Origin: a bacterium
GTDB lineage: Bacteria > Oederibacteriota > Muellerivitia > Muellerivitales > Muellerivitaceae
Assembly (NCBI GenBank): GCA_035549195.1
Contig: DASZRK010000075.1
Span: 62,001-126,000 of the forward strand
Length of the DNA: 64,000 nt
Direction of reading: 5' to 3'
The notes below the pieces were generated by a model. It was not told the origin of the DNA, made no database searches, and worked only from the letters and a program-made list of their open reading frames with translations. Each line of letters opens with the position of its first letter. The first letter of the stretch is position 1. Both the position numbers and the translations under genes were made by a program. Positions 52,596-64,000 of this stretch are shown in pieces.

Positions 52596-54035
52596 ATGAC
52601 TCCTTGGTCCGAGCCCAAAACCGAAAAGAAGGTCTTTCTGGAGACCTTCGGATGCCAATCCAACGTCCTGGAATCGGACCATGTAACGGGGCTCCTGCTC
52701 AAGGGCCGTTTTTCCATGACCCAGGAACCGGAGGAAGCGGACGTCATCCTTTTCAACACCTGTTCGATCCGGGACCACGCGGAACACAAGGTCTTCTCGC
52801 GGCTCGGCCAACTGGCCGAATGGAAAAGGGAGCGGGATGGCCGGGTGATCGGTGTCATGGGCTGCATGGCCACCAGCTACAAGGATCAGTTGCTCGAAAG
52901 GGCGCCCCATTTGGACCTGGTCGTGGGGCCGGACCAATATCCCAGGATCCCCCAAGTGTTGGAGGAGGCCTCCCGCACCGGCCAAAGCCAGGTCCTGGCC
53001 GATTTCGACCCCATCTATTTTCCCGAGAACGACCCGGCCCGTTTGGCCCAGCCCCACCGGGCTTTCATCGAGATCATGAAGGGATGCGACAAGTTCTGCA
53101 CCTTTTGCGTGGTGCCCTTCACGCGCGGCCGCGAGGTCTCACGGCCCGCCGAAAGTATCCTGGAGGAGGTCGCCCGCATCGCCGGGGCCGGGGTGAAGGA
53201 AGTGATGCTCCTGGGACAGAACGTGAACTCCTATGGGCGGCCTGGTTTTTCAATTGAAAAAATAAATAATGGACAACGAGGCAAGCCCAGTTCTCCTATA
53301 ACGACGGATGGGGGAACAGGGCTGGGGCTCTCCTCCCCGGGCCGCACCCTCACCTTCGCCCGACTTTTAAGGGAGGTCGCCTCGGTCCGGGGTATCCAAC
53401 GGGTGCGGTTCATGACCTCCCACCCCCTGGACCTGTCCGACGAACTGGTCGAGGTCATGGCCTCGACCCCGGCGGTCTGCGGCTCCATCCACCTGCCGGT
53501 CCAAAGCGGTTCGGATACGGTCCTCAAGCGCATGAACCGGAAATACAGCGTGGCCCATTACCTCGAAAGGGTCCGGGCCCTGAGACGGCAGGTGAAGGAC
53601 CTTTACGTCACCACCGACCTAATCGTGGGGTTCCCGGGAGAGACCGAGGCGGACTTCCAGGCGACCTTGGACCTGCTGGAGGAGGTCCGTTATGACGCGG
53701 TCTATAGCTTCAAATATTCCCCGCGCCTGGGCACCCCCGCCGCCCGGATGTTGAACCAAGTCGAGGAGGAGGTCCAGGACGAGCGTTTGGCCCGTCTCAA
53801 CAACGTGGCCTGGAAACATGCCGCCGAGTCCTGCGAAAAGAGGATGGGGAAGGTGGAGGAAGTGATGGTGGAGGGTCCTGCGGACAAGACCCCGGACGCC
53901 TTCTATGGTAAGAGCCGCCAGAACCGGACCGTGGTCTTCCCGGGGCGGGGGTATGGCGCGGGAGATGTGGTGAAAGTCAAAATCGAAGGTCATAAAGTGG
54001 CGAACCTCTACGGGGTCGTCGTAGAACAGGGATGA
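52596..54035 (+). CDS. miaB: tRNA methylthiotransferase MiaB with an internal insertion
   Basis: This 479-residue radical-SAM enzyme adds a methylthio group to i6A37 of tRNA, using two Fe-S clusters. The auxiliary cluster cysteines are C20, C56 and C90, and the radical SAM triad is C164, C168 and C171 (CDKFCTFC). A TRAM domain closes the protein. Residues about 216-250, right after GQNVNSYG, are extra compared with the family and are encoded by partly AT-rich DNA with a 16-bp palindrome; the frame is kept. Its TGA overlaps the ATG of the next gene (ATGA). Confidence 0.95.
   Translation: MTPWSEPKTEKKVFLETFGCQSNVLESDHVTGLLLKGRFSMTQEPEEADVILFNTCSIRDHAEHKVFSRLGQLAEWKRERDGRVIGVMGCMATSYKDQLLERAPHLDLVVGPDQYPRIPQVLEEASRTGQSQVLADFDPIYFPENDPARLAQPHRAFIEIMKGCDKFCTFCVVPFTRGREVSRPAESILEEVARIAGAGVKEVMLLGQNVNSYGRPGFSIEKINNGQRGKPSSPITTDGGTGLGLSSPGRTLTFARLLREVASVRGIQRVRFMTSHPLDLSDELVEVMASTPAVCGSIHLPVQSGSDTVLKRMNRKYSVAHYLERVRALRRQVKDLYVTTDLIVGFPGETEADFQATLDLLEEVRYDAVYSFKYSPRLGTPAARMLNQVEEEVQDERLARLNNVAWKHAAESCEKRMGKVEEVMVEGPADKTPDAFYGKSRQNRTVVFPGRGYGAGDVVKVKIEGHKVANLYGVVVEQG
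53246..53261. repeat. AT-rich palindrome inside miaB
   Basis: TTTTTCAATTGAAAAA is a perfect 16-bp palindrome at the start of the non-conserved insertion of miaB. It resembles the AT-rich inverted repeat upstream of sufU in composition only. Confidence 0.55.
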
Positions 54036-55246
54036 AAATGATGAACGCGGATAAAAAGATCGAAGAAAAAAGGGTCCGGATCATCGGCGCCCATCCTTAT
54101 TTATCCCTGTTTTTAATGTTCTTCGCCTTGGGGTCTTTTGCCGCAGAGCCCACCCCCAAACCGACGGAAGACACCCACTCCCTTTTCGAGAAGGCCCAAA
54201 AGCTCTTCGACCAAAAGGACTACCAGGAAGCCAAGGACACGCTGAACCAGTTGGTGGCCAAACACCCGATGGACGAGTACATCCCCAGGGCCCGTCTGCT
54301 TTTGGCGAACCTGCAGGAAGATTTCAACGTCTCCATCGCCCAATTCAAAAGCCTGGCGGCGGAATACGCCGATAAGCCCGAGGGAGAGGAGGCCCAGAAG
54401 GACCTGGGGGCCCGTTATTACCTGGCGGATAAATACGAGGAAGCGGCCAAGAGCTACCACGAGTTCCTGGAGACCTACCCGAAGAGCCTGGCCCTGCCGG
54501 AGGTCCATTATTGGTACGCAGCCTCCCTGGCGGCCATGGACAAGAACGACCAAGCGGTCGATGAATATAAGAAGGTCCTGGACCTTTCCAAGGACAGTGC
54601 CTGGGCGCCCAAGGCGTTCCTGGGAATGGGAAACGCCTATTTCAAGATGAAGAAATACGATGACGCCCGCGACCAGTACCTGAGGATCCTGGACCGCTAC
54701 CACCTTTATGATGAACTGAACCTCGTCTATTTCCGCTTGGGCCAGACCTACGAGGCCCAGCAAAAATGGCGGGAAGCCCACGCGGCTTTCCAGACCCTGA
54801 TCCAGCAATATCCCAGGTCCTTCGAGGTCGCCGAGGCACGGGACCACTTGCGGGCCCTGGAAAGCCTCCATGCGGACATTGCCCACGCTCCCGAGGCGGA
54901 GGAGCCTACCCCCACCCCAACGGTCGTCACGGTCCAAGCTGCGCCCGTCCCCCATCCGGGGGTCACGCCCGAGCCGGTCCTTTCCAAACTGCCATCCTCG
55001 CTTGCGCCCAAACCCTTCCATGTACAAGTGGGGGTCTATTCGAAGAAAGTCAACGCGGACAAGGCCCGCCAGGCCATCCACAAGGCGGGTTACAGTTCCT
55101 ATGTCGTCACGGCCAAGCAGGAAGGGGTCCCCTATCCCTATTACAAGGTGCGGGTCGGGAATTACGCCGACCGGGCCTCCGCCGAGAAGGTCGCCAAGAT
55201 CCTGGCCCAGAAGACCAAAGAAAAAGCCATCGTGATCGAAGATTAG
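54032..55246 (+). CDS. Exported TPR protein with a C-terminal SPOR domain
   Basis: This 404-residue protein has a signal peptide (about 1-38), TPR repeats (about 48-280) of the YfiO/YbgF kind, a Pro/Thr-rich linker and a SPOR domain (about 325-402, FHVQVGVYSKKVNADKARQAI). SPOR domains bind denuded glycan strands of peptidoglycan, often at the division site. It is coupled to miaB by ATGA overlap, with no obvious functional tie. Two ATG codons (54032 and 54041) could start it. Confidence 0.88.
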   Translation: MKMMNADKKIEEKRVRIIGAHPYLSLFLMFFALGSFAAEPTPKPTEDTHSLFEKAQKLFDQKDYQEAKDTLNQLVAKHPMDEYIPRARLLLANLQEDFNVSIAQFKSLAAEYADKPEGEEAQKDLGARYYLADKYEEAAKSYHEFLETYPKSLALPEVHYWYAASLAAMDKNDQAVDEYKKVLDLSKDSAWAPKAFLGMGNAYFKMKKYDDARDQYLRILDRYHLYDELNLVYFRLGQTYEAQQKWREAHAAFQTLIQQYPRSFEVAEARDHLRALESLHADIAHAPEAEEPTPTPTVVTVQAAPVPHPGVTPEPVLSKLPSSLAPKPFHVQVGVYSKKVNADKARQAIHKAGYSSYVVTAKQEGVPYPYYKVRVGNYADRASAEKVAKILAQKTKEKAIVIED

Positions 55247-55312: not shown

Positions 55313-57961
55313 ATGGACGATCTAACGCCAATGATGCGGCAGTACCTGGAGATGAAGCGGGTCTATAAGGACCAGGTCCTTTTCTTCCGCTTGGGCGATT
55401 TCTACGAGATGTTCTTCGAGGACGCCAAGACCGCGGCCCGGGTCCTTCACCTCACCTTGACCGCCCGTTCCGGGGGGAACGACCGCAAGATCCCCATGGC
55501 GGGCATCCCCTTCCACGCCGCCGACAACTACATCGCTAAGCTGGTCAAGGCGGGCTATTCCATCGCCATCTGCGAACAGGCCGAGGATCCGGCGCTGGCC
55601 AAGGGCCTGGTCAAGCGGGAGATCGCCCGGGTCATCACCCCGGGCACCATCCTGGCCCCGTCCATGCTGGAGGAAAAGGCCAACAACTACCTGGTTTCCG
55701 TGGCCCCTTCGGCCCAGGGATTGGGGCTGGGCGTGGTGGACGTCACCACCGGGGAGTTCAAGGCCTGTGAATTGACCGGCCCCACCCGTTTTTCCGTGGC
55801 CGCCGACGAACTTTCCAAGTTCAACCCATCGGAGATCCTGATCCCCCAAACCCAACCGGAGACCGAGGAATGGGCGGGCCTGCTCAAGGCCGTCAACGGC
55901 GCGACCCGTTCCCATATCGAGGACTGGAAGTTCTCCACCGACGAAGGCCGGGAAGCCCTGGAGGAGCATTTCCAGGTGAAGTCGCTCGAGGGCTTCGGTC
56001 TGTCGGGGCAACCCCAGGCGGTACGGGCGGCGGGGGCCATCCTCCAATACCTGAAAGAGACCACCCACAGCGTTCTTTCGCACCTGGTGAGCCTTTCCAC
56101 CTTCCAGGTCGGAGAGGGGATGGTGCTGGACGCCACCACCCAACGCAACCTCGAGATCGTGAAGCCCATGCGGGACGACGGCAAGGAGGGGACCCTGCTC
56201 TCGGTCCTGGACGAGACGGTCACTTCCATGGGCGGGCGGTTGCTCCGCCAATGGCTCATCACGCCCCTGACCTCGGTCTCGGCCATCAAGCGCCGCCAGG
56301 ATGCGGTGGAAGAGCTTTTGGCCCGCCAGGAGGACCGGGAAACCCTGCGGGAGTTCTTCCGGCAGGTCTCCGACCTGGAACGCCTCGCGGGGCGCATCGG
56401 CTGCGGCACCGCCAACGCCCGGGACCTGGTGGCCCTTAGGACCACCCTTTCCCTTTTGCCCAAGGTGCACCAGGTGCTCAACGGGTTCAAATCCCAGGCC
56501 ATCCGGGACCGGGTGGAAGGGTGGGACAACCTGACCGAGATCCAGCAACTCCTGGAAAAAGCCATCCATGACGAACCGCCCCTGGCGCTGCGGGAAGGGG
56601 GGCTCATCAAGGCCGGTTATAGCCCTGAACTCGACGAGCTCAAGGGCGCCTCGGTGGAAGGCAAGGGCTGGATCGCCCAATTGGAGGAGAAGGAGAAGCA
56701 ACGCACCGGCATCTCCTCCCTCAAGGTGCGTTATACCTCGGTCTTCGGCTATTACATCGAGGTCTCCAAGGCCAACCTGGACAAGGTCCCCAAGGATTAC
56801 CACCGCAAACAGACCCTGGTGAACGCCGAGCGCTTCATCACCGACGAGCTCAAGGGCATGGAAGGGAAGGTCCTGGGGGCCCAGGAGAAGGCCGACAAGC
56901 TCGAGTATGAGATCTTCGAGAAGGTCCGCGCCCAGGTGGCCCAGGAACTCTCCCGCCTCCAACGCGTCGCCCGGGCCCTGGCCGAACTGGATGTCTATGC
57001 CTGCATGGCGGCGGTGGCCGACCGGGGACGTTACGTGCGGCCCGAGGTGGACGATGGTCCCGAGCTTTCCATCGTGGAAGGGCGTCATCCGGTGCTGGAT
57101 CGCATCCTCTCCAGCGACCAATTCGTGCCCAACGACACCCACTTGGGGGTGGAGGGGGTGGAGATCGTGGTCCTGACCGGGCCCAATATGGCGGGGAAGA
57201 GCACCTATATCCGCCAGGTGGCCCTGCTTTCCCTCATGGCCCAGGTCGGGTTCTATGTCCCCGCCCAGAAGATGAAGGCGGGCATCGTGGACCGTATCTT
57301 TTCCCGGGTGGGGGCCTCCGATGCCCTCACCCAGGGCCAGAGCACCTTCATGGTGGAGATGGTGGAGACCGCCAATATCCTCAATCACGCCACCCACCGA
57401 AGCCTCCTCATCCTCGATGAGGTGGGCCGGGGCACCAGCACCTACGACGGGGTCTCCATCGCCTGGGCGGTGGTGGAGTATATCGCGACGAAACTCAAGG
57501 CCCGGACCCTCTTCGCCACCCACTACCACGAACTGACGAGGCTCTCCGGCACATTCCCCAACGTGAAGAACTTCAATATCGCGGTGCGAGAATGGAACGA
57601 GCAGATCCTGTTCCTGCGCAAGATCGTGGAGGGCGGCACCGACAAGAGTTATGGCATCCAAGTGGCCCGCTTGGCCGGGGTGCCCAAGGAAGTGGTCAAC
57701 CGCGCCAAGAAGATCCTGGCCGGTCTTGAAACCGGTACCTTCCTTTCGAACCCCTCCAAGGGCCCTTCCAAGGAAACTGTCGAGGCCGAAGAGAGACCCG
57801 ACGCGGGGACACCCGATCCAACGGCGCCCCAGTTGTCCTTTTTCGGGACCGGCGCCAAGCATCCCATCCTGGAGGAACTGAAGGGCCTCGATGTGGATGG
57901 TCTCACCCCCCGGGACGCCCTCAATATCTTGGGGGAATGGAAGAAGAAGGTCGAAGAGTAG
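55313..57961 (+). CDS. mutS: DNA mismatch repair protein MutS
   Basis: This 882-residue mismatch sensor has the mismatch-reading FYE (30-32) in RLGDFYEMF, the connector and lever domains, the clamp, and an ABC ATPase with GPNMAGKST (about 622), DEVGRGTSTYDG and FATHYHELT. A short C-terminal region follows, with a Pro/Glu-rich linker and a final helix likely for tetramer formation. mutL is not in the window. Confidence 0.98.
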   Translation: MDDLTPMMRQYLEMKRVYKDQVLFFRLGDFYEMFFEDAKTAARVLHLTLTARSGGNDRKIPMAGIPFHAADNYIAKLVKAGYSIAICEQAEDPALAKGLVKREIARVITPGTILAPSMLEEKANNYLVSVAPSAQGLGLGVVDVTTGEFKACELTGPTRFSVAADELSKFNPSEILIPQTQPETEEWAGLLKAVNGATRSHIEDWKFSTDEGREALEEHFQVKSLEGFGLSGQPQAVRAAGAILQYLKETTHSVLSHLVSLSTFQVGEGMVLDATTQRNLEIVKPMRDDGKEGTLLSVLDETVTSMGGRLLRQWLITPLTSVSAIKRRQDAVEELLARQEDRETLREFFRQVSDLERLAGRIGCGTANARDLVALRTTLSLLPKVHQVLNGFKSQAIRDRVEGWDNLTEIQQLLEKAIHDEPPLALREGGLIKAGYSPELDELKGASVEGKGWIAQLEEKEKQRTGISSLKVRYTSVFGYYIEVSKANLDKVPKDYHRKQTLVNAERFITDELKGMEGKVLGAQEKADKLEYEIFEKVRAQVAQELSRLQRVARALAELDVYACMAAVADRGRYVRPEVDDGPELSIVEGRHPVLDRILSSDQFVPNDTHLGVEGVEIVVLTGPNMAGKSTYIRQVALLSLMAQVGFYVPAQKMKAGIVDRIFSRVGASDALTQGQSTFMVEMVETANILNHATHRSLLILDEVGRGTSTYDGVSIAWAVVEYIATKLKARTLFATHYHELTRLSGTFPNVKNFNIAVREWNEQILFLRKIVEGGTDKSYGIQVARLAGVPKEVVNRAKKILAGLETGTFLSNPSKGPSKETVEAEERPDAGTPDPTAPQLSFFGTGAKHPILEELKGLDVDGLTPRDALNILGEWKKKVEE

Positions 57962-58471: not shown

Positions 58472-58831
58472 ATGAAACGTGATGAATGGATCCTCGGCAT
58501 CCTGCTTTATTCCCTCATCCTCCTGGCCGCCAATTCCGGCCCCCTGGCCGCGAAATTGGAACAATGGCATTGGGACCGGCCCCTTTTCGCCGGCCGGACC
58601 CAATTTTGGACCGTCCTGGTGCCACGCTCCTGGGGGGCTTGGATCGAACATTGGACCGCCCGGGTCCAGGAGGGCCTTTCCACTTGGGCGTCCTTCGGAC
58701 GGACCTTGATGCGCTCTGGGCCGTCCTTCGATTTTTTCTTCCCCGGCAGATCCCGTTCGTTGGCCCATGGGAAGGTGACTTTGCCCGATGAAAGGAGGAA
58801 CTTGAATGGAAAAGAACCACAAAAAGGTTGA
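58472..58831 (+). CDS. Small membrane protein of unknown function
   Basis: This 119-residue protein has an N-terminal hydrophobic segment (about 7-26) that is either anchor or signal, then a Trp-rich region (WHWDRP, QFWTVLVPRSWGAWIEHW) and a basic tail. AAAGGAG precedes ATG 58472. It overlaps the next gene by 26 bases, so the two are probably coupled. No family is recognised. Confidence 0.65.
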   Translation: MKRDEWILGILLYSLILLAANSGPLAAKLEQWHWDRPLFAGRTQFWTVLVPRSWGAWIEHWTARVQEGLSTWASFGRTLMRSGPSFDFFFPGRSRSLAHGKVTLPDERRNLNGKEPQKG

Positions 58832-59180
58832 GGGAGGGATCATAGTGGCCGCCAAGCGGGCGCCGCGTATGGCGCGGGGCCCGGTGGTCCGGTCGAACCC
58901 CTTCGGATTGATAAAGCTTTTCCTCAAGGGATACCTGAGAAAAGACCATTTGGTCCGCCAGAAAAAGGTGGCCGATTGGCTCTCCGTGGCCCCCCGGGTC
59001 CGGATGTCCCAGATGGCCAAATGGGCCGACTTGACCCGCAACGCGATCGTGGAATCCGCCACGGAGACATTCCAGGCCTCGTTCAAAAGGGACCTTTCGG
59101 AATCGGAAAAGGTCTTCATGCGGGTCCATGTCGAGGAATTCGTCCAGAAGGTCGGTGACGACCGGGGCCGGCGCCCCTGA
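58806..59180 (+). CDS. Small basic protein of unknown function
   Basis: This 124-residue protein starts basic (MEKNHKKVEGG) with no signal peptide. Residues about 40-80 are Lys/Arg-rich and helical (KKVADWLSVAPRVRMSQMAKW), and about 80-118 form an acidic helical tail. ATG 58806 follows AAAGGAGG. It may bind DNA or RNA, but no known fold is evident. A hairpin 30 bases after the stop may end the transcript. Confidence 0.65.
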   Translation: MEKNHKKVEGGIIVAAKRAPRMARGPVVRSNPFGLIKLFLKGYLRKDHLVRQKKVADWLSVAPRVRMSQMAKWADLTRNAIVESATETFQASFKRDLSESEKVFMRVHVEEFVQKVGDDRGRRP

Positions 59181-59499
59181 CCCGCAAGCCGGCTCTTATG
59201 CCGATATCCCTTGAGGACCGAAGAAAGGGACCTCAAGGGAAGAAGGTTTTTGAAGGTCCTCATTTCCCAAAAGGCCCGGTTTGCAGCGCCGGGACCTTGC
59301 CCGGTCCTTCCTGACCGGGCGAAACACCTGTCCCCGGGGCCGGCGGGTCCGACCCGATGGGCCATTTGCCGGGCTTTTCCCGGGCCTGGAGGTTGATAAA
59401 GGCGCTGTCAACCCCCCTTTCCCTTGGCTAAAATAACCTCCTTGGCCGGTCGAACCCGGCCCCGACACCTTTCCGACACCTTATGAAGCCAGGTGGGCC
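59181..59499. other. Non-coding gap with two perfect hairpins
   Basis: No credible gene lies in these 319 bases. Hairpin one: TCCCTTGAGG (59207-59216) with CCTCAAGGGA (59231-59240), followed by AGAAGGTTTTT, a likely terminator for the orphan genes. Hairpin two: GCCCGGTC (59299-59306) with GACCGGGC (59313-59320). TAAAAT at 59429-59434 could be the -10 box of the following giant gene. Confidence 0.55.
59207..59250 (+). terminator. Likely terminator of the three-gene orphan unit
   Basis: A perfect 10-bp stem (TCCCTTGAGG with CCTCAAGGGA, 14-base loop), with TTTTT eleven bases after the stem; the U-tract is not directly adjacent, so termination may be partial. Confidence 0.5.
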
Positions 59500-62400
59500 T
59501 TGCTGAAAAAAGACGACAAGATCCAAAAAAAGAACTTCCCTTACGACCTGCCGGTCGAGATCGAGACCCGGGCCCATGGCCAAGTCATGGCCCGTTGCCC
59601 CCTGCTTCCGGGTTGCCAAGCCCAAGGCGCCACCCCCAAGGAAGCCCTGGAAAAATTAAAGAACGTCATCGACCTCTACCTCCGGACCGCTTCCCCGGCC
59701 CTCTTTGAAAGCCTGGAAAAATTCCCCGGGGTGGCCACCCTCTACGACCTGGCCGAGTTCCGGGGCTATCTTTACGCCGCGACCGGACGCGATTCGGTCC
59801 TGAGGTCCTCTTCGGGCGCGGCGGGTTCCTGGAAATCCATCCCCATCACCAACTTGGACACCAAGTTCTATACCCCGACGGGCAAGGATCCGGAGGAGGG
59901 GGGGGACTATGTCACCCAGGTCTACTGCCTTTGCGTCTATGCGCCCCCCGGCAAGGAACCGGTCCTTTACGCGGGCACCAACTTGGGGGGCGGGATCTAC
60001 CGCACCACCGATGGCGAGACCTGGCAGGAAGCCTTCTCCACCGACGAGGACCGTATCCATTCCCTTTGTGTCTTCAAGGGACGGCTCTATGCCGGGACCA
60101 GCTCCCACGGCAAGGTCTATGCTTTCGACGGGACCCAGTGGAACACCGTGGGGGCCCTGAGCGAGGTGGCGGTCACTTCCTTGGGGGTCTATCGGGACCG
60201 TCTTTACGCCGGGACCTATCCTTCGGGGTTCCTTTTCTCCACCCGGGACGGGCTGAACTGGGAGGAAACGGCGGCCACCGGACAGAACTTCATCCAATGT
60301 TTCCATGAGTTCCAGGGCGCCTTCTACGCGGGCACTTCCAGCCCCAAGGGCGTGAAGGTCTTCCGCACCGTCAACGGCGCCGACTGGCTCTGCGTTTATG
60401 AGTCCGTCCGGGAACAGAACCTCTACTGCATGAAGGCCTTCGAGAACACCCTTTACGTGGGCACCGGCAATTCGGGCCGCATCCTCAAGACCCAGGATGG
60501 GAACGAATGGGGGACCGCCTTCGCCGGGGATGAGGAAGGGGTGCGGGCTTTCGCCGTTTTCGGCGACTATCTTTACGCCGCCACCGAGAACGAAGGATCG
60601 CTGCTGCGATCCACCTTCGACATGGCCCGGCCCCCCGAGATCACCGAACTGACCGTAGAGCGGGTCACGTCCTCCACCGCCCTCATCACCTGGACCACCG
60701 ACATCTCCGCCACCACCGAACTGCATTACGGGGAGAAGGGTTCCGAACCCCGCAAGGCGGTGTTGGACCGCAACCTGGTCCTCCAGCATCGGGTGCACCT
60801 GACCGACCTGAAGGCCGAATGCGAATATGAGTTCCAGGCCGCCAGCGCCTTCCGTTCCTCATCGTTGAGCGTGACCGAATCCTCTTCCTTCAAGACGGTC
60901 CCGGTCCCGCCCCCGGCCCTGTCATCGCCCAGCCACCCGATCCCGGGACGGTGGGAGAGATCGAGCGACGTGGAGATCCTCCTGAACCCTCCGGCCGCCC
61001 TTTCCGGTTATTACTACCTGCTCAACCATTATCCGGAGACCGTGCCGGCGCCGCCGGAAGCCTCCTATACCCAGGACCGGCGCGTGGCCCTGTCCGGTAC
61101 GCCCCAGGGCAGTTGGTACTTCCATGTGGTGGGGGTGGACGAAGCGGGCAACATCGGGCGCCTGGCGTCCCATTACCGGTTGCAGGTGGACACCGAGGCG
61201 GCCCCGCCGGTCGAGCTTAAAAGCCCCACCCATCCGGACCCGGAACGCTGGGTGGCCAACCCGACGCCGGTGGTCGCTTGGGAGACCCCCAAGGATCTTT
61301 CCGGGGTGAAGGGCTTCTTCCTCAAGGCCGACCACGACCCCACCACCGTGCCGGGCCCCGGCAATGGGGATTTCCTCGACGGGACCCGCAGTTCCCTCGG
61401 ACCCCTGGAGGACGGCCTCTGGTACGTCCATGTGACCGCCCAGGACGAGGCGGGGAACCTGGGGAGCCAGGCCGCCCATTTCCCCCTGCGCATCGATACG
61501 AAGGCCCTGGCGCCGACGCTCTCCTCCACGACCCACCCCCAGCCCGACCAGTGGTACTCGAACAAGCGGGTCGAGGTGGAGATCCACCCGCCCCACGACC
61601 TGTCGGGGATCGAAGGCTACCACTACGTCTTGGACCACGAGCCGGGGACCCTGCCGGATACGGAAGGGTCCCAATGGACCTCCCAGGCCCGTATCGTCAT
61701 CGAGGAGGTGGCCGACGGCCAATGGTTCCTCCACGTGCGCACCAAGGACCGGGCCGGGAACCTGTCGCCCAACGCCGCCCACCTGAAGCTGAGCATCGAC
61801 ACCCTGGTGGCGCCCCCGAAGGTCTTCTCCTCGACCCATTCGGAGGACGGCCGCTGGTACCAGAACCGCCGGGTGGTCCTGAACTGGGAGGACCCTTTCG
61901 AGCATTCGGGCATCGAGGGCTACTATTACAACATCGACAAGCGCGCCGATACGGTCCCCAACGACAAGAACTCGCTTTTCACCAGCCAGCGAAGCGTCTC
62001 CTTCGAGCTGACCGACGACGGCCTCTGGTATTTCCACATCACCACCAAGGACAAGGCCGGGAACGTGGATTGGAAGGCCGTCCATTACCCCTTGCGGGTG
62101 GATTCCCATGTGGGCCGGGCCGTGATCACCTCCCCCACCCATCCGGACCCGGAAGCCTGGAGCACGGTCCCGAAGGCCCAGTTCAAGTTGACCCCGCCGG
62201 ACGACCTGTCGGGGGTGACGGGCTTTTATTACCTCTTTTCGGAGGACGCCCAGGCCGTTCCCGACGCCAAGAACGGCACCTTTACGGACAAGAACGAGAT
62301 CAACCTCGACATCCCCCGGGACGGGGTCCATACCCTGGCGGTCATCTGCCAGGACAAGGCGGGCAATCTTTCCAAGGAAGTGGCCACCTACCGCGTCCGT

Positions 62401-64000
62401 CTCGATACCCAGGTGGGGCAGGCGGTCCTCCAATCCTCCACCCATCCGGACCCACAGAAGTGGTATGCCGTCCAGCGCGTTGAATTGACCTGGAAGGATC
62501 CCGCCGACCTGTCGGGCATCGAGGGCTATTACTATCACCTGGACCGGGAGGAGCAGTGGGCCCGGGATATCCAGGCCATGACCTGGACCACGGGACGGGG
62601 GACGGTGGTCACCATCCCCGAGGATGGCATCTGGTTCCTCCACCTCGCCGCCAAGGACAAGGCCGGCAATATCGGCGATTGCGCGCGCTATTCCATACGC
62701 ATCGACAGCTCGGCGGGGGTGGCCACCCTGAAGAGCTCCACCCATCCGCCCCACCAATGGGTCAAGACCCAGGTGCCCCTGTTCCAATGGGACCCGCCCC
62801 GGGAGCTTTCCGGGGTCGAGGGGTATTACCTGGGCCTTGACGCCCAGCCCCATTCCATTCCGGGGCCCGGGAACGGCAAATGGGTCACCGAGACATCCCT
62901 CACCGGCCCTTCCCTCAAGGACGGCAAATGGTTCTTCCACGTGGTGGTCAAGGACCTGGTGGGGAACGTGGGGAAGGAAGCCGCCCATTATCCCATCCTG
63001 ATCGATACCCAGGCGCCTAAGTCCCAGATGAAGCCCATGCCCGCCCTTCTGGACAAGACCCAGGTCTATGTGGAATGGAGCGCGGTGGACGCCCATAGCG
63101 GGGTGGCTTCTTATGATGTGCAGGTGAGCACCAACGGGGGGGGCTGGGCCGACTGGCTCACCCATGTCACCGAGACCAACGGGGTCTTTCCGGGCAAGGA
63201 CGCGCAGAAATACGGTTTCCGGGTGCGGGCCCGGGACAACGCGGGCAACGTGGAACCCTATCCCGAAAAAGCCATGGCCTCCACGCAGATCGACATTTCC
63301 GCTCCGGATCCCATCCTCCAGCTCAAGGCCACGCCGAAGGCGGGCGGGGACATCGAATTGAAATGGGCCCCGGTCGCCGACCGCATCTCGGGCACGGACC
63401 ATTACCGGGTCTATCGCTGGGTCGAGGGGGAGCCCAAGACCAAGATCAGCGTGGACGGCCAGGTCAAGACCACCGAGTTCCTGGACCCGGGGGCTTCCCT
63501 CAAGGAGAACATCGCCTACCACTACTGCGTGCAGGCCGTGGACCGCATGGGCAACGAACAGCATGAGGGGAACGCGGAGGCGGTCTCGCTCTCCGACCAT
63601 GGGGTCGGACTTCCGACCGTCACTTCGCCCACCCACTCCAGCGACGATTGGAGCTCCCAGAACTCGGTGGTGCTGGTCTGGGACGCACCCGCCGACGCCA
63701 CGGGCATCGCCGGCTACTATTACAAGCTCGACCAAAGCCCCAACGCGCGCCCGGACGAGACCCCCGACCATTTCCTGGACGGCCGCCGGCTGGAACTCTC
63801 CAGCCTGGAGAGCGGCATCTGGTATTTCCACCTGACGGCGAAGGACCGGGCGGGGAACGTCAGTTCGGAGGCCGCCCATTACCGCCTGCGTATCGACACC
63901 ACCCAGCCTTCGGCGCCCCAGGTGACCTCCACCAGCCACCCCGATCCCCAATGTTGGTATTCGTCCGGGAAGCTGGACCTGCATCTTTCCTCGGCCCCGA
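59500..64000 (+). CDS. Giant repeat protein: HicB-like, beta-propeller, Fn3-like, Ig-like repeats (3' end outside window)
   Basis: The frame is open for 1500 codons to the window end. Residues about 16-62 (MARCPLLPGCQAQGATPKEA) match the HicB/UPF0150 fold of antitoxins. About 75-375 is a six- or seven-blade beta-propeller with repeated LYAGT and DGxxW motifs. About 377-470 is fibronectin-III-like (TALITWTTD). From about 475 on come repeats of roughly 100 residues with a SSTHPDPxxWY start, DLSGIEGYYY middle and GLWYFHxxxKDKAGN end. An in-frame TAA at 59434-59436 and no ATG, GTG or TTG before TTG 59500 fix the start, so there is no room for a signal peptide. AGG lies six bases upstream. Surface-type domains with a cytoplasmic-type N-terminus are unexpected. 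Confidence 0.88.
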   Translation, partial: MLKKDDKIQKKNFPYDLPVEIETRAHGQVMARCPLLPGCQAQGATPKEALEKLKNVIDLYLRTASPALFESLEKFPGVATLYDLAEFRGYLYAATGRDSVLRSSSGAAGSWKSIPITNLDTKFYTPTGKDPEEGGDYVTQVYCLCVYAPPGKEPVLYAGTNLGGGIYRTTDGETWQEAFSTDEDRIHSLCVFKGRLYAGTSSHGKVYAFDGTQWNTVGALSEVAVTSLGVYRDRLYAGTYPSGFLFSTRDGLNWEETAATGQNFIQCFHEFQGAFYAGTSSPKGVKVFRTVNGADWLCVYESVREQNLYCMKAFENTLYVGTGNSGRILKTQDGNEWGTAFAGDEEGVRAFAVFGDYLYAATENEGSLLRSTFDMARPPEITELTVERVTSSTALITWTTDISATTELHYGEKGSEPRKAVLDRNLVLQHRVHLTDLKAECEYEFQAASAFRSSSLSVTESSSFKTVPVPPPALSSPSHPIPGRWERSSDVEILLNPPAALSGYYYLLNHYPETVPAPPEASYTQDRRVALSGTPQGSWYFHVVGVDEAGNIGRLASHYRLQVDTEAAPPVELKSPTHPDPERWVANPTPVVAWETPKDLSGVKGFFLKADHDPTTVPGPGNGDFLDGTRSSLGPLEDGLWYVHVTAQDEAGNLGSQAAHFPLRIDTKALAPTLSSTTHPQPDQWYSNKRVEVEIHPPHDLSGIEGYHYVLDHEPGTLPDTEGSQWTSQARIVIEEVADGQWFLHVRTKDRAGNLSPNAAHLKLSIDTLVAPPKVFSSTHSEDGRWYQNRRVVLNWEDPFEHSGIEGYYYNIDKRADTVPNDKNSLFTSQRSVSFELTDDGLWYFHITTKDKAGNVDWKAVHYPLRVDSHVGRAVITSPTHPDPEAWSTVPKAQFKLTPPDDLSGVTGFYYLFSEDAQAVPDAKNGTFTDKNEINLDIPRDGVHTLAVICQDKAGNLSKEVATYRVRLDTQVGQAVLQSSTHPDPQKWYAVQRVELTWKDPADLSGIEGYYYHLDREEQWARDIQAMTWTTGRGTVVTIPEDGIWFLHLAAKDKAGNIGDCARYSIRIDSSAGVATLKSSTHPPHQWVKTQVPLFQWDPPRELSGVEGYYLGLDAQPHSIPGPGNGKWVTETSLTGPSLKDGKWFFHVVVKDLVGNVGKEAAHYPILIDTQAPKSQMKPMPALLDKTQVYVEWSAVDAHSGVASYDVQVSTNGGGWADWLTHVTETNGVFPGKDAQKYGFRVRARDNAGNVEPYPEKAMASTQIDISAPDPILQLKATPKAGGDIELKWAPVADRISGTDHYRVYRWVEGEPKTKISVDGQVKTTEFLDPGASLKENIAYHYCVQAVDRMGNEQHEGNAEAVSLSDHGVGLPTVTSPTHSSDDWSSQNSVVLVWDAPADATGIAGYYYKLDQSPNARPDETPDHFLDGRRLELSSLESGIWYFHLTAKDRAGNVSSEAAHYRLRIDTTQPSAPQVTSTSHPDPQCWYSSGKLDLHLSSAP

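Follow-up and report, generated by a model that had tools for sequence, protein, structure and literature searches.

Giant proteins built from immunoglobulin (Ig)-like repeats and a propeller are usually assumed to be surface proteins. Giant Ig adhesins such as SiiE lack a signal peptide and leave the cell by type 1 secretion. The HicB/UPF0150 fold is that of the N-domain of antitoxins (PF15919, PF21748), represented by the structures 2DSY (TTHA0281) and 6G1C/6G1N (HicB). In YpHicB3, tetramers form through the HicB N-domains by dimer-of-dimer contacts (PMC11594946). Toxin-antitoxin (TA)-type domains within longer proteins are known from the fused HicA/HicB classes 11-14, which, in the available part of the paper on them, are HicA fusions (HicAB, HicBA, SMC-HicA) and include no HicB-propeller or HicB-Ig fusion (mBio 2024, PMC10865869). 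Nor did a literature search turn up any account of a protein that joins HicB to a propeller or to Ig-like domains.

Within the window, by which we mean the whole 64,000-nt stretch of DNA that was analysed, one gene joins these two kinds of part. A first-pass annotation had read it as a repeat giant of surface type that lacks a signal peptide and has a HicB-type fold fused to it. This reading survived all tests, including both refutations that the annotation had named, a frameshift or assembly error at 59650-59750 and the lack of a HicB match in profile searches. The open frame of at least 1500 codons reported at that stage proved to be 1,856 codons long and to encode one protein. It starts at TTG 59500 on the + strand, its codons 1-1,500 occupy 59500-64000 as judged from the open frame and from orthologs, and its stop lies 1,071 nt past the window end (L002:3501-9071). 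The nearest upstream in-frame stop is a TAA at 59434-59436 (+); the 21 codons that separate it from TTG 59500 encode PPWPVEPGPDTFPTPYEARWA and limit any N-terminal extension to that length, so the argument for TTG 59500 as the earliest start, without a signal peptide, stands. On the opposite strand, an antisense open frame of 1,020 codons (60922-63984, -) overlaps the giant; because its GC3 is low (0.63 compared to about 0.8) and its composition odd, we regard it as a shadow frame.

From N- to C-terminus, the giant consists of a HicB/UPF0150 domain, a propeller, a fibronectin type III (fn3) domain, seven Ig-like repeats, two fn3-like units, three further Ig-like repeats, a CarboxypepD_reg domain, and an end weakly resembling FlgD and Por tails. 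The Asp-box-like beta-propeller (59725-60615, +; residues 76-372) has about seven blades, with six blade motifs spaced about 40 residues apart and a partial seventh. It matches DUF6242 (E 8e-10) and has no significant match among PDB sequences. The fn3 domain follows at 60634-60876 (+; residues 379-459; PF00041, total E 1e-13, best stretch 381-448). Both domains had been recognized in the first pass, as had about nine Ig-like repeats; nine indeed start in the window (residues 476, 575, 676, 777, 878, 979, 1079, 1376, and 1477), and a tenth begins beyond its end, at residue 1578. Repeats R1-R7, each about 101 aa, stand in tandem at 60907-63021 (+), with starts at 60907, 61204, 61507, 61810, 62113, 62416, and 62716, and are defined by Big_13/OmpL47-type matches, an alignment (A3), AlphaFold (AF2), and Foldseek. 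Two fn3-like units (63022-63606, +; three PF00041 stretches and a Big_3_2 match at residues 1223-1256) lie between the two repeat blocks. They are followed by R8 (63607-63909, +), assigned from the repeat motif and the alignment, and by the first part of R9 (63910-64000, +). Reading the remainder of the gene, a check that had been proposed, added the rest of R9, R10, the CarboxypepD_reg domain (about residues 1676-1741), the FlgD/Por-tail-like domain (about 1770-1828), and a basic tail. In an alignment, the eight repeats that the window contains in full are 31-42% identical and share 10 invariant columns. AlphaFold run on their mutual alignment gave a model with pLDDT 94, which Foldseek places among Ig/FnIII/PKD-type sandwiches. 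No paralog of these repeats was found elsewhere in the genome, and we rejected an origin of the giant as a paralog of other Ig proteins there.

The HicB head spans about residues 14-66 (59539-59697, +). In Pfam, a single member matches HicB families weakly (E 0.003-0.009, under the cut-off), and 17 of the 21 orthologs match UPF0150 (best E 3e-5), HicB_lk being the second family matched. When a profile of residues 1-80 was searched against the whole PDB, HicB-family structures ranked first: the top four were 2DSY (E 1e-4), 6G1C (0.004), 6G1N (0.005), and 2YZT (0.03), with 1WV8, also of the HicB family, at E 0.26 and unrelated matches at E of at least 0.16 throughout. In Foldseek, the leading matches of a single-sequence AlphaFold model of the head (pLDDT 74) were 2DSY, 6G1C, and E. 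coli HicB3, with probability 1.00 and E of only about 0.03-0.04. A profile of the HicB domain plus propeller also found stand-alone frames of about 70-90 codons in other phyla (E down to 1e-11), and a HicA-like frame, judged by eye, adjoins seven of the eight that were inspected. The profile searches, the predicted structure, and the stand-alone HicB genes beside HicA agree and support the assignment, in line with the HicB/UPF0150 pattern originally noticed in the N-terminal segment.

One correction is needed: the gene also occurs in other genomes, at a nearly fixed length. It occurs in 23 of the 45 genomes of the phylum, always as a single copy. We compared 21 sequences, namely the giant itself and 20 homologs from other genomes, and assessed domain order through the full alignment rather than by annotating each protein. 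Outside family f5, the 16 complete homologs are colinear nearly end to end and measure 1,845-1,860 codons, with the exception of the G002 copy (1,944 codons counted from the earliest start); the copy from f5 (G011) is longer, at 2,430 codons, and sits on a long branch, and the remaining homologs extend past contig ends. The alignment of the HicB and propeller segments (A1) has a mean column identity of 65%. Of seven pairs, six had a whole-gene dN/dS of 0.03-0.28 and the seventh a saturated dS, and every domain is under strong constraint in the pairs computed. Presence as a single copy in 23/45 genomes, with near-fixed length, the same order, and dN/dS below 1, establishes that the reading frame is no assembly artefact. 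Where resolved, the forks of the tree match the families, as expected under vertical descent, although this tree is that of the giant itself, set against families and not against a species tree; the gene is probably inherited vertically. Families f3, f4, f6, f9, and f12 yielded no copy, nor did two genomes of genus g2 in family f1 (G001 and G005, both at least 94% complete), where the absence is a probable loss within the family. As for the pairing of HicB domain and propeller in other genomes, which the first pass had proposed to look for, it recurs within the phylum, but across three other phyla (111 genomes) the two never occurred in one protein and were present only separately.

Two genomic settings recur. 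In families f1 and f2, the conserved upstream neighbor is a gene (55313-57961, + in the window) that we take to be mutS, with a gap of 27 nt in G008. Between it and the giant, the window holds two small frames (58472-59180; 119 and 124 aa) with no conservation seen in relatives. In families f8, f11, and f13-f16, a ferredoxin-KorABC-GNAT operon precedes the giant instead, with the giant after GNAT and the two reading frames often overlapping by 4 nt. The same gene order is kept in three genomes of the giant-less families f3 and f9 (loci L183, L182, and L186), where other genes or the contig end come next after GNAT. Downstream of the giant in this Kor-operon clade lie genes for a zinc-ribbon membrane protein and for a protein resembling O-antigen ligase. 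The former (L038:11653-12480 and orthologs) has a zinc ribbon, the only part with Pfam matches, one apparent transmembrane (TM) segment, and an extracytoplasmic part of about 200 residues. It comes after the giant in f8, f11, f13, and f14, and f15 has only a truncated copy beside the giant. We considered this protein as an obligate partner and rejected it: strong matches (E < 1e-60) are limited to f8, f11, f13, f14, and f16, and matches elsewhere are weak and cover mostly the zinc ribbon.

No signal peptide was detected in any of the 21 giant sequences, as judged from upstream stops and hydrophobicity, and hydrophobicity likewise indicated no transmembrane segment in the orthologs (0.4-1.6 for the first 60 residues; whole-protein maximum over 19 residues, Kyte-Doolittle scale, 0.7-1.3). 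By comparison, the long FlgD_ig-tailed proteins of the same genome with a readable N-terminus mostly have a Sec-type start, a call made by a hydrophobicity heuristic rather than by SignalP. Composition also sets the giant apart. It contains 5.2% K and 6.3% E (about 11.5% K+E) and 22.8% charged residues, compared to 1.9-4.2% K+E and 7-15% charged residues in the FlgD-tailed proteins (n = 14); within the giant, K+E reaches 20% in the HicB domain and 17% in the C-terminal domains. Because some periplasmic proteins of the window with signal peptides are K+E-rich as well (e.g., 54032-55246, 17%), this composition is a better argument against an ordinary surface protein than for the cytoplasm. Exported and non-exported proteins could not be told apart by their cysteine content. 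Of the three readings offered in the first pass (an unusual export route, a cytoplasmic giant, or a new role for the HicB-like domain), the lack of signal and transmembrane segments, the charge unlike that of exported FlgD-tailed proteins, and the cytoplasmic-gene contexts favor a cytoplasmic protein.

We consider it about an even call that the giant is a scaffold, cytoplasmic and rod-like, in which the HicB head multimerizes copies or docks a partner. The protein would reside in the cytoplasm and form a stiff rod. We favor a multimerized or partner-docked rod because HicB N-domains also make protein-protein contacts; with those of YpHicB3 as a model (PMC11594946), the head may have been co-opted as a contact module and have given up antitoxin action. 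The propeller would be the main putative ligand-binding platform, and the conserved domain at the C-terminus, together with its basic tail, a putative second binding site. Several observations pull the other way. Every non-HicB domain has relatives that are as a rule exported; in the PDB, the Ig repeat matches mostly extracellular domains, although titin and myomesin show intracellular use; the genes downstream in the Kor-operon clade encode the membrane zinc-ribbon and O-antigen ligase-like proteins; and the high K+E of periplasmic window proteins means that composition does not prove location. More tentatively, and at somewhat below even, we propose an intracellular rod of the titin type, restricted to the phylum and constrained in length, which comprises ten Ig-like repeats and a propeller and is multimerized by HicB outside TA biology. 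If true, bacteria also make long intracellular rods out of surface-type parts, and an antitoxin-type domain has been recruited as a structural module.

The main rival to the cytoplasmic scaffold, which we judge unlikely, is that the giant is exported without an N-terminal Sec signal by a type 1-like or unknown system, addressed by its C-terminal region or its HicB head, and serves as a surface rod or adhesin. Its domain set is that of exported proteins, SiiE domains are among the Foldseek matches of the Ig repeat, and conservation of the C-terminus extends right up to its final residues (GKITRYxIRKIKKxK in the Kor-operon clade). Yet the giant has no RTX repeats among its Pfam or NCBIfam matches, no adjoining gene for an ABC exporter or a membrane fusion protein was noticed at any locus inspected, where neighbors are partly annotated, the C-terminal tail is strongly basic, and the composition differs from that of the extracellular FlgD proteins of the same genome.

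It is highly improbable, in our view, that the giant is a T9SS substrate, with the FlgD/Por-like C-terminus as sorting domain and an N-terminus that crosses the inner membrane in an unrecognized way. The first pass had allowed for a C-terminal signal or sorting domain beyond the window. The end is weakly FlgD_ig/Por_Secre_tail-like, and the isolated C-terminal ends of two orthologs match both families (E 2e-4 to 1e-3), but all the C-terminal matches (PF18962, TIGR04183, and PF13860) fall below the curated cut-offs, and the Sec signal that known T9SS cargo require is absent. The FlgD-tailed proteins typical of this genome have both such a signal and a terminal strand of the ...KKVIVLK type, and the giant has neither. 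In 10 of the 45 genomes, this one (G000:C80:157980-158237, below the cut-off) and nine others, SprA_N (T9SS translocon) has weak matches within frames roughly 2,000 codons long; only three of the 45 pass the cut-off, and SprA_N-positive genomes do not track presence of the giant. These weak matches and the 92 that FlgD_ig has in this genome raise the possibility of a divergent T9SS in the phylum.

A slimmer chance still attaches to the HicB domain remaining an antitoxin, such that the giant would neutralize a HicA-type toxin or regulate a TA locus. In favor of this, the domain is genuinely related to HicB antitoxins, whose genes lie beside HicA in other genomes. However, no HicA was found in the giant's own genome (G000, 97.9% complete), HicA is equally frequent with and without the giant (9/23 giant-bearing and 9/22 giant-less genomes), and it never adjoins the giant in any genome, lying on other contigs or 62 kb away in G011. 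An ordinary antitoxin role, through HicA, is therefore unlikely, and the lack of a present or linked HicA favors the new role for the HicB domain raised in the first pass. The giant also has no Pfam match to a DNA-binding domain, and it matched no PADLOC defence system, on which ground we rejected a role as one. Finally, annotation of one genome would not by itself exclude an artefact, whether two genes fused by an assembly or frame error or a wrong start masking a signal peptide, but this has a negligible probability, since the HicB-propeller join is in frame in all 21 sequences from ten families and the upstream stops, 0-47 codons before the conserved start across orthologs, are too close for any hidden signal peptide.

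The component domains of the giant are already known, and its architecture, near-fixed length, and probable location are new. With HicB antitoxins its head shares the fold and the pattern x-F-x-A-x-C-P-x-L-P-G-x-x-x-x-G-x-T-x-x-E-A, but here the domain is the N-terminal approximately 4% of a protein of 1,850 residues with neither a DNA-binding domain nor a hicA partner gene. Like classes 11-14, as far as the available part of their description goes, it has a TA-type domain in a longer protein, but no HicA domain (PMC10865869). The type 1-secreted adhesins of the SiiE, LapA, and BapA type are likewise giant Ig-repeat rods without a Sec signal, from which the giant differs in its lack of RTX matches and of a noticed adjacent exporter and in its HicB-propeller head. 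OmpL47-type/Big_13 Ig-repeat surface proteins and giants with FlgD_ig or Por tails have the repeat families and the FlgD-like end in common with it; unlike them, it is a charge-rich, single-copy protein of near-fixed length and order without a signal peptide. Homologous propeller segments occur in another phylum in proteins of about 745 aa (G142, G143, and G139; E 1e-15 to 1e-12), which, unlike the giant, begin with a signal peptide and have no in-frame HicB domain. Clear signal peptides start four of the propeller homologs inspected in other phyla, and it is this position that the HicB domain occupies in the giant.
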